Of a stretch of 64,000 bases of DNA, positions 54,267 through 56,590 are shown one piece after another; the stretch's first letter is position 1; every line of letters starts with the position of its first letter. The notes under the pieces are model-generated. The model worked only from the letters and a program-made list of their open reading frames with translations. It had not been told where the DNA came from and searched no databases. The position numbers and the translations under genes are program-made. Source of the stretch: Pseudogemmobacter humi (lineage in GTDB: Bacteria > Pseudomonadota > Alphaproteobacteria > Rhodobacterales > Rhodobacteraceae). The stretch lies in NCBI RefSeq assembly GCF_900609055.1, contig NZ_UXAW01000033.1:124001-188000 (forward strand), given 5' to 3'.

Positions 54267-55089
54267 GATCGAGATCAGGAACGTCTTCAAGATCTTCGGG
54301 GCCGATACGCGCACGGCTCTTGCCATGGCGCGCGACGGGGCGGACAAGTCTGCGATCCTGGCAAAGACCGGATGCAGCGTCGGGCTGAACGACGTCAGCC
54401 TGCGCATTCCGCCCGGCCGGGTCTTCGTCATCATGGGGCTGTCGGGGTCGGGCAAATCCACCCTCGTGCGCCATATCAACCGCCTGATCGAGCCGACGAG
54501 CGGCGAAATCCTCGTCGATGGCCGCAACGTCCTTGGGCTTTCGGCCCCCGAATTGCGCGATTTCCGCAAGAGCCGGGTCAGCATGGTGTTTCAGAGCTTC
54601 GGCCTGATGCCGCATCGCAGCGTGTTGCAGAACGTGATCTATGGGCAGCGTGTGCGCGGTCTTTCCAGGGCCGAGGCCGAGCCGATCGGTATGAAATGGA
54701 TCGAAACCGTCGGTCTGACGGGTTATGAGAACAAATATCCGTTCCAGCTTTCGGGCGGGATGAAGCAAAGGGTCGGCCTTGCGCGGGCGCTGGCCGCCAA
54801 TACCGACATCATCCTGATGGACGAGGCGTTCTCGGCGCTGGATCCGCTGATCCGGGGCGAGATGCAGGATCAGTTGATCCAGCTTGAGCACGATCTGGCA
54901 AAGACCATCGTCTTCATCACCCACGATCTGGACGAGGCCCTGCGCATCGGCGCCGAGATCGCCATCCTGAAGGACGGCAAGCTGGTCCAGGTCGGCACTC
55001 CGCATGAGATCCTGACCTCGCCCGCCAATAATTATGTGGCCCGCTTCGTCGAGCGGCGCAGCCTTCAGGGAGGGGAGCAGCATGGCTGA
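54259..55089 (+). CDS. hutV: Histidine/betaine-type ABC transporter ATPase HutV
   Basis: 276 residues of the ProV/OpuAA group, with its typical extended N-terminus ([26 protein letters not shown]). Walker A is GLSGSGKST, signature LSGGMKQRV and Walker [14 protein letters not shown], ending with ITHDLDEAL. It lacks the C-terminal CBS domains found in some ProV proteins. Overlaps hutW before it and hutH after it (8 bases), so it is translationally coupled on both sides. Confidence 0.93.
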
Positions 55090-56590
55090 CACGGTTCTGT
55101 TCGACGGCGCGCCGGACTGGCGCGCGATTGCCGCCATCGCCCGTGGCGCACGGCTCGGGCTGTCGCCCGCCGCAGAGGAGCGGATCCGCCACGCGCGCAG
55201 CCTGGTCGACAGCCTCGTCGCCAGCGGCACACGCGGCTACGGGATCAACACCGGGGTGGGCGCGCTTTGCGATGTGGTCATCGACCGCGACCGTCAGGCG
55301 CAGCTGTCGCGGAATATCCTGCTCAGCCACTCCTGCGGCGTCGGGGCTCCGCTCGGGCGCGAAGAGACCCGTGCGATCATGGCCGCTCAGATCGCGAATT
55401 TCGCCCATGGCTGTTCAGGGGTGCGCCCCGAGACCGTTGCGGCGCTGGTGGCGCTGCTGAACGCGGACATCCTGCCGGTGATTCCGTCGCGCGGCTCGGT
55501 CGGCTACCTGACCCATGCCGCCGCGATCGGCCTCGTGCTGATCGGCGAGGGCCAGGCCCGGATCGGAGACCGCATCGTCTCCGGCGCGCAAGCCATGGCC
55601 GAACTGGGGCTGGCGCCTCTGGTGCTGGCGGCCAAAGAGGGGCTGAGTCTGGTCAATGGCACGCCCTGCGCCACCGGGCTGGCGGCGCTGGCGCTGGCGC
55701 GGATGGAGCGGATGCTCGGCTGGGCCGATGCCGCCGCCGCCGTCAGCTACGAAAACCTCGGCGCGCAGAACGCGGCTTTCGATGCTGTGCCGCTCGGGTT
55801 GCGCAAATCCGACGGGCTCGCCGCCAGCGGCGCCAATCTGCGCGCCTGGCTGGCGGACAGCGAAATCCTCGCAAAGGGGGCGGGGCGGCGCACGCAGGAT
55901 CCGCTCAGCCTTCGGGCCGTGCCGCAGGTCCATGGCGCGGTGCGCGACGCCTTCTGCGAAGCGGTCAGGGTAACGGATCGGGAACTTGCCAGCGTGACCG
56001 ACAATCCGGCCGTCACCGGCACGCCGGCCGCCCCCGAAGTCTGGTCTCAGGCCCATGCCGTCGGGGCGGGGATGGCGCTTGCGCTGGACGGGCTTGCCAC
56101 CGCGGCCGCCACCCTTGCCGCCATTTCCGAGCGCCGCACCGACCGGCTGGTCAATCCGCTGGTCAGCGGGCTGCCTGCCTTTCTCGCAGCCGGGGGCGGG
56201 GTGTATTCGGGCTTCATGATCCTTCAGTATACCGCGGCTTCCCTCGTCGCAGAAAATCGCAGGTTCGCCGCCCCGGCCACGCTGGATGGCGGCATCACCT
56301 CGGCCTTGCAGGAAGACATCCTGACCCATGCCACGCCCGCGGCGGGCAAGCTGTTGCAGATCCTCGACAATCTCGAACTGGTGCTGGCGATCGAGCTGCT
56401 GGCGGCGATGCAGGCCTATGACATGCAGCCCGATCCGGCCGCCCGCCGCGCCCCCGCGACCGACCGGCTGTATCGCTTCATTCGGGCGCTGCTGCCCGCC
56501 TATCGCGACGACCGCCCGCTGAACGCAGATCTGGCCCTTTTGCGCGCCCGGATCGCGGACCGCGATCTTTCCGGGCCGGAGATGCTCTGA
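55082..56590 (+). CDS. hutH: Histidine-ammonia-lyase homologue lacking the MIO triad
   Basis: 502 residues over the full HAL/PAL fold: YGINTGVG (Tyr53), LLSHSCGVG (His83), [11 protein letters not shown] (Asn192), QDPLSLR (Arg278) and SALQED (the Glu that binds imidazole). In canonical HutH, [15 protein letters not shown] supplies Ala-Ser-Gly for the MIO cofactor; here the sequence reads [14 protein letters not shown] (residues 138-151, nt 55493 on), exactly three residues shorter. The usual active-site Tyr280 is Leu275 and the Phe329 position is Ala. The gene is intact and overlaps hutV and hutI. Best reading: an MIO-free lyase, perhaps for a histidine betaine; a pseudoenzyme is the alternative. 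Confidence 0.9.

Follow-up and report, generated by a model that had tools for sequence, protein, structure and literature searches.

What does a member of the histidine ammonia-lyase superfamily do in a histidine utilization (hut) operon when it lacks the residues that form the cofactor of these enzymes? The question is raised by a gene on the forward strand, at 55082–56590, of a 64,000-nucleotide stretch of the Pseudogemmobacter humi genome (contig NZ_UXAW01000033.1; the whole stretch is called the window hereafter). Its 502-aa product, a member of PF00221, reads GSVG-YLTH at residues 138–145, where histidine ammonia-lyase (HAL, HutH) carries the Ala-Ser-Gly (ASG) triad that forms 4-methylideneimidazole-5-one (MIO). 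In our judgement the gene product is quite likely a cofactor-free trimethylamine-lyase that acts on hercynine (N-alpha-trimethyl-L-histidine, histidine betaine) and feeds the hut pathway. The initial annotation had read it as a betaine lyase that yields urocanate and trimethylamine, and this reading gains support from a clade of triad-less relatives, a ProU-type transporter, a canonical HutU, a separate ergothioneine cluster, a search of the genome in which no canonical HutH was found, and genes for the demethylation of trimethylamine N-oxide (TMAO) and dimethylamine.

The open reading frame is intact, running from an ATG at 55082 to a stop codon that ends at 56590; its start is overlapped for 8 nt by the gene for a ProV-type ATPase and its stop for 1 nt by hutI. 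With 492.8 bits against a gathering threshold of 27.3 for PF00221 the product belongs to the superfamily, but it scores under both NCBIfam cut-offs for histidine ammonia-lyase (445.3 against 539.15 for TIGR01225, and 460.4 against 524 for the other). When aligned with the HAL of Pseudomonas putida, 9 residues lie between the shared GSVG and the shared LVLxGEG, versus 12 in that enzyme; ASG is missing, and the protein is exactly three residues shorter there. The alignment agrees with the initial annotation on the residues that are kept (Tyr53, His83, Asn192, Arg278 and the Glu of QED) and on the replacement of Tyr280 by Leu275 and of Phe329 by Ala. From P. putida numbering to that of the window protein, Y53, H83, N195, Q277, R283 and E414 correspond to Y53, H83, N192, Q272, R278 and E411, while Y280, F329 and N328 have become L275, A326 and H325. 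Going by its sequence, the protein is not an MIO-dependent histidine ammonia-lyase. An AlphaFold2 model of the monomer, based on a 41-row alignment (mean pLDDT 91.4, pTM 0.93), shows a predicted fold of the HAL family, which is silent on the substrate: in a Foldseek search against the PDB, P. putida HAL came first (TM 0.93 to 1gkj; E 2.1e-34 for the HALs), and ergothionase 6s7j ranked 16th (TM 0.90, E 5.7e-31).

The absence of the triad is a property of a whole clade. We collected 86 clade loci, namely the best 80 of 421 GTDB relatives matching the clade patterns and 6 plasmid loci picked by hand out of 872 plasmid records with a match; they are mostly from Rhizobiaceae, and some end early at contig ends. 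The lyase lacks ASG in all of them (80/80 GTDB and 6/6 plasmid loci), the motif reading GSVGYLTH in 73, GSVGYLSH in 11, and GSAGYLTH and GSVGYLTD in one each. A sequencing error or a pseudogene is ruled out by this clade-wide absence together with the intact reading frame. For a comparison by residue, 89 distinct clade rows were set beside 72 canonical HutH rows and 7 ergothionase-type rows, the latter being PDB 6s7j, three proteins with a thiourocanate hydratase over the cut-off in their locus (L161, L162, L163), and three placed by similarity and tree (L173, L180, L182). In window numbering, Y53, H83, R278 and E411 do not vary in any of the three sets (89/89 in the clade). Residue 192 is Asn in the clade and in HutH, and Ser or Ala in the ergothionase type. 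Conversely, residue 275 is Leu in the clade (89/89) and the ergothionase type (7/7) where HutH has Tyr, and residue 59 is Val in these same two sets (89/89 and 7/7) where HutH has Phe (71) or Tyr (1). His325 and Ala326 are invariant in the 89 clade rows, with Asn and Phe at these positions in HutH. Residue 383 (also 383 in Treponema denticola) separates all three sets, being Tyr in 88 clade rows and Leu in one, Val (71) or Ile (1) in HutH, and Lys in 7/7 ergothionase-type rows. Finally, Tyr142 occurs in 89/89 and His145 in 88/89 clade rows.

Trees were built without the motif columns: a quick tree of 79 selected rows, and a careful tree of 65 rows that omits 14 long or redundant ones, including two of the four rows of a group that we call B and that is about 50% identical to the clade. 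Both trees recover the clade, the clade with group B, and canonical HutH as groups, each at 100/99 in the careful tree. The initial annotation had named a branch within canonical HutH, and a triad missing from this genome alone, as the outcome that would speak against it; what we find is a separate clade and a triad absent from 86/86 loci. Its description of an "exact three-residue deletion" stands as to the missing ASG and the 9 against 12 residues, but not as to direction, which the tree does not settle. In the 65-row tree, the clade, HutH and rows resembling phenylalanine ammonia-lyase (PAL) fall on one side (99/99), the inner order is weak (PAL-like with HutH, 66/39), 6s7j joins the other ergothionase-type rows weakly (63/27), and the root is not known. 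The approximately unbiased (AU) test does not reject a grouping of the clade, group B and the ergothionases as one MIO-less unit (p-AU 0.515). ASG could also be primitively absent, and we have rejected the notion of two proven independent losses of MIO given that p value, the weak inner order and the lack of a known root. Loop length, with the ergothionase type one residue and the clade three residues shorter than HAL, may hint at separate histories. We think it rather unlikely that cofactor-free lyases of quaternary histidine betaines represent the older state of the fold, with MIO gained later for primary amines and the triad-less lineages (the clade, group B, ergothionases and others) being survivors instead of losses.

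The four group B proteins (L167–L170) are themselves MIO-less, with GSVG-YI.H at the motif. In L167 the lyase gene neighbours one for a LysR regulator; efflux genes of the HlyD/MacB/outer-membrane kind come next, and a PhyH oxygenase is encoded close by. Several other distinct lineages of PF00221 homologues (L174–L177, L179, L183–L185, L191) likewise lack a full ASG and are possible MIO-less lyases.

So what exactly would the enzyme of the window act upon? The urocanate hydratase encoded downstream (HutU, 58620–60314, forward strand, start codon uncertain) is canonical, with 913.6 bits for TIGR01228 (cut-off 375) and scores under both thiourocanate-hydratase cut-offs. Because it is canonical and resembles the HutU of congeners that bear HutH, the product of the lyase should be urocanate, and the histidine betaine that would give urocanate is hercynine. 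Urocanate-hydratase-type genes occur in 33/86 clade loci; 32 are nearest to the HutU of the window (at least 68% identity), one is of the S-methyl type, and none of the 33 is nearest to the thiourocanate type. On the side of uptake, a ProW-type permease of at least 45% identity was found in 51/86 clade loci, compared with 0/20 canonical-HutH loci of the class and 0/7 of the genus, a comparison that favours the clade, as the ProW reference was taken from the window, and in which the 20 control loci were picked by hand. The genome furthermore carries the TMAO demethylase Tdm (1230.7 bits, cut-off 1100) along with DmmA-family and HODM genes, which give released trimethylamine a plausible use.

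Ergothioneine appears to be served by other genes. The only other PF00221 protein in this genome, encoded in locus L161 (contig C109:46500-66400), is ergothionase-type and MIO-less, with GSVG-CG-D at the motif. Its gene lies near those for a thiourocanate hydratase (1021.7 bits, cut-off 930), a thiohydantoin desulfurase (592, cut-off 440) and ErtE (570.2, cut-off 520), and is adjoined by genes for an OpuAC-type betaine-binding protein and an ABC (ATP-binding cassette) permease. Ergothioneine therefore already has a lyase and a thiourocanate hydratase of its own in this genome.

The hut locus itself looks like a mosaic. We compared its genes by best identities with seven hut loci of congeners and with the clade loci. 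One set is nearer to the clade (best clade versus congener identity): HutC 73 versus 33%, HutF 67 versus 52%, ProW 85% versus no congener match, ProV 82 versus 38%, the lyase 72 versus 38%, and HutI 68 versus 60%; the ProX-type protein reaches at best 66% to clade loci. Another set is nearer to congeners (best congener versus clade identity): HutU 93 versus 80%, HutG 77 versus 64%, and HutD 66 versus 52%, although the HutG of less close congeners, at 60–64%, is no nearer than that of the best clade locus (64%) and only the best congeners reach 73–77%. The window HutU is 83–93% identical to that of 12 congeners, with six reaching 93%, and the DNA of hutGUD is 82–83% identical to that of four congeners across about 2.8 kb, from about 57.83–57.90 to 60.66 kb. 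From these identities, a foreign hutC-hutF-proWV-lyase-hutI block has apparently been joined to a native hutG-hutU-hutD. In congeners, HutU is adjoined by canonical HutH, and a homologue with GSVGASGD was present in 12/12 of those searched. A PF00221 search of all 143 contigs of the window genome (completeness 100%) returned two matches, both without ASG, and thus no canonical HutH. The genome would as such be an apparent case of operon takeover, in which a foreign lyase-transporter block sits on the native hutGUD and no histidase is found by search.

Other genomes with the clade do carry a histidase-like gene. All 36 genomes tested, chosen from the 80, have a HutH-like match with a best identity of 56–90%, HutH being judged here by identity to R. 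etli HutHa1 with the motif unread; 34 of these matches are near full length, and two (G805, G807) are fragments at contig edges. Moreover, in 25/86 loci a GSVGASGD lyase is present within the locus of the clade lyase. The clade is therefore not simply the histidase of its genomes.

Several observations weigh against hercynine as the substrate, or limit how far the assignment extends. An octopine/amino-acid-type ABC transporter accompanies the lyase in 13/86 loci (1/20 controls), and 22/86 have neither type of transporter. In the window, the gene for the ProX-type protein stands apart from proWV on the opposite strand. The Tdm and Dmm genes also have uses unrelated to hercynine. The predicted structure is that of a monomer only, with a weak loop at 401–410 (block pLDDT 59), and as Foldseek places HALs above ergothionase 6s7j, the fold does not favour betaine chemistry. 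As to the reference set, 6s7j is the only one of the seven ergothionase-type rows that is named ergothionase, three others being so classed by the thiourocanate hydratase in their locus and the rest by similarity. No hut gene lies near the lyase in 7/86 clade loci, so that some clade members may do something else. One of these seven is L036 on the pAt plasmid of A. tumefaciens (L036:772-13494), whose lyase shares the clade, 60% identity, GSVG-YLTH and a ProU-type transporter with that of the window, but has Leu at the position of Tyr383 and is adjoined by genes for an S-methyl-thiourocanate hydratase, ErtD and a molybdopterin S/N-oxide reductase; a member in such an S-methyl-ergothioneine-type cluster implies that substrates vary within the clade. 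Genes of the L036 cluster are annotated as hutH and urocanate hydratase.

A further point comes from S. meliloti. Its HutH2, which we take to be the 70% identical clade homologue L033, was reportedly published as a putative histidase in an operon for histidine/betaine transport. The hutXWV-hutH2 genes are said, in a J. Bacteriol. study of 2000, to be induced by histidine and to transport histidine, proline and betaines, and hutX and hutH2 mutants reportedly grew about 30% more poorly on histidine. This may reflect some activity on histidine, or else a polar effect. L033 has the same HutC-HutF-ABC-lyase order as the window, but unlike there, hutI, hutG and hutU were not seen in the 12 kb after the lyase. 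Taken together, the clade probably comprises histidine-betaine lyases that differ in substrate, and hercynine applies to the window protein and its hut-linked relatives. We recognised no description of a hercynine lyase in the literature, which here means open-licence papers, so that one may exist in print. In L034, L041, L057 and partly L083, clade lyases 71–72% identical to that of the window, without hut genes nearby, adjoin a substrate-binding protein and a desaturase-like protein; L034, L041 and L057 also have cytochrome c, 2Fe-2S and molybdenum hydroxylase genes next to them.

The rival that survives best is an ergothionase or S-methyl-ergothioneine lyase, i.e. an MIO-less elimination on a thio-substituted imidazole betaine, which we consider unlikely. 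The window protein shares with ergothionase of T. denticola (6s7j) the PF00221-type fold, the absence of the triad, Y53, H83, R283 and E414, and the changes Y280 to Leu and F59 to Val (Leu275 and Val59 in all seven ergothionase-type rows), and trimethylamine elimination from a histidine betaine is proposed for both; within the clade, L036 (60%) lies beside an S-methyl-thiourocanate hydratase (975.8 bits, cut-off 880) and ErtD. However, identity to 6s7j is 28%, and in place of the triad the ergothionase type has xG-D or xA-D, which leaves it one residue short of HAL, whereas the window lyase is three short and reads Y-L-T-H. The ergothionase type has Lys383, a catalytic residue of ergothionase, Ser or Ala at 192, and a thiourocanate hydratase as partner, where the window has Tyr383, Asn192 and a canonical HutU; no hydratase in the 86 clade loci is nearest to the thiourocanate type, and the ergothioneine genes of this genome lie elsewhere with an MIO-less lyase of their own. 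As far as sequence comparison goes, the window lyase should work like ergothionase, yet it lacks two of the marks tested, the Lys and the hydratase partner.

Alternatively, the substrate may be another histidine-derived amine, such as N,N-dimethylhistidine or another N-alkyl histidine, with urocanate still as product. The product-side evidence fixes urocanate only, and the amino-acid-type transporters of 13/86 loci would suit such a compound. Conversely, ProU-type transporters speak for a fully methylated amine, a tertiary amine is a poorer leaving group than a quaternary one, and hercynine is a known natural compound, so we see but a slim chance for this reading.

It is also most improbable that the protein has remained a histidine ammonia-lyase, working MIO-free or with some other activation, in an otherwise ordinary hut operon. 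With HutH (P. putida 1gkm/1b8f) it does share the operon, the downstream enzymes, the residues for imidazole and carboxylate, 38% identity and the fold (TM 0.92–0.93). HutC control, the retained Asn192 and imidazole-binding residues, the lack of another HutH found in the genome, and the reported growth effect in the S. meliloti hutH2 mutant can be counted toward it. Unlike HutH, however, it is without the MIO triad, has Y280L, F329A and N328H, falls under TIGR01225 and forms part of a separate clade. None of the 89 clade rows retains the triad, Tyr280, Phe329 or Asn328, and loss of the MIO serine inactivates HAL. Furthermore, a HutH-like enzyme also exists in 36/36 clade-bearing genomes tested, and a GSVGASGD lyase lies inside 25/86 loci. 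That the missing triad marks a non-catalytic or decaying copy has a negligible probability, as the reading frame is intact and overlaps its neighbours and the catalytic residues are invariant in 89/89 rows from several genera.

If the lyase does act on hercynine, a mechanism can be proposed. The ProU-type ABC transporter (ProWV with ProX) would import the betaine. In line with the roles of these residues in HAL, His83 and Glu411 may hold the imidazole and Arg278 the carboxylate, while Tyr53 as base would take the beta proton. Trimethylamine would then be expelled directly, without the MIO that a leaving group as good as a quaternary ammonium does not require. The short loop (Tyr142, His145), together with the changes Y280 to Leu, F329 to Ala, N328 to His, and Phe to Val59, would provide the room for N(CH3)3+, such that the space of MIO, Tyr280 and Phe329 holds the trimethylammonium group, with Tyr142 and Tyr383 perhaps as aromatic walls. 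Urocanate would pass through HutU, HutI, HutF and HutG to glutamate and also de-repress HutC, and trimethylamine would pass to Tdm and Dmm. Whereas the sequence features, the clade, the mosaic make-up of the operon, the gene pairing, the predicted HAL fold and the existence of trimethylamine-related genes come from the analysis itself, we infer not only the substrate, but also the chemistry, residue roles, transporter specificity and regulation. If true, this would constitute a dedicated route of hercynine breakdown, in which one cofactor-free step leads into the ordinary histidine pathway with release of trimethylamine. Re-labelling would be due for many genes that are named histidine ammonia-lyase in Rhizobiaceae, Burkholderiaceae and their relatives, S. 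meliloti hutH2 apparently among them. Moreover, there would be a natural experiment on how an enzyme can do without its built-in electrophile once a better leaving group is present.

The lyase is surrounded by the remaining genes of the locus. The HutC repressor gene, of rhizobial type, is found at 50904–51695 on the reverse strand (TIGR02018 291.8 bits, cut-off 220). On the forward strand, the foreign block continues with HutF, a formimidoylglutamate deiminase (51797–53158; TIGR02022 643.4 bits, cut-off 413), a ProW/ChoW-type quaternary-amine ABC permease (53409–54266) that scores under the curated ProW and ChoW cut-offs, the ProV-type ABC ATPase (54259–55089; TIGR01186 334.9 bits, cut-off 326.6) and, after the lyase, the imidazolonepropionase HutI (56590–57789; TIGR01224 402.6 bits, cut-off 298). 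In the native block, also on the forward strand, HutU is preceded by the N-formylglutamate deformylase HutG (57809–58609; TIGR02017 351.4 bits, cut-off 279) and followed by a HutD-like protein (60311–60850), named from its position and from relatives annotated as HutD. Further downstream lie a GcvA-like LysR-type regulator (60992–61909, forward strand), whose role is uncertain, and on the reverse strand an OpuAC/ProX-type betaine-binding protein (61988–63031; PF04069 186 bits; start codon uncertain), the probable partner of ProWV. A FAD/GCV_T dehydrogenase (47733–50402) was rejected as part of the system: its gene is 88.6% identical in DNA to one on a Paracoccus plasmid, and among the 86 loci a match (79%) was found only in R. 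etli L037.

Between hutC and hutF, at 51768–51779, lies a HutC-like palindrome, TTGCATATACAA. The HutC site is TGTA-N2-TACA according to PMC12977541; with one further base at either end (TTGTANNTACAA), it has this palindrome as its one match in the window at up to one mismatch, where 0.05 would be expected. A TTGTATNNACAA-like site, again at up to one mismatch, is present in 36/86 clade loci and absent from 50/86, the scan covering gaps of up to 350 bases from a hut, transporter or lyase gene in loci that are related to each other. It gave 54 matches in clade loci, compared with 13–23 in five single-base shuffles. In L109 and L112, near-identical HutC-like sites are located ahead of the transporter-lyase genes and ahead of hutU. 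Lastly, just past the ProX-type gene, a small protein encoded on the reverse strand (63228–63917) matches HalD with 43.3 bits (cut-off 26), and is possibly an oxygenase of the 2-oxoglutarate type or a halogenase.

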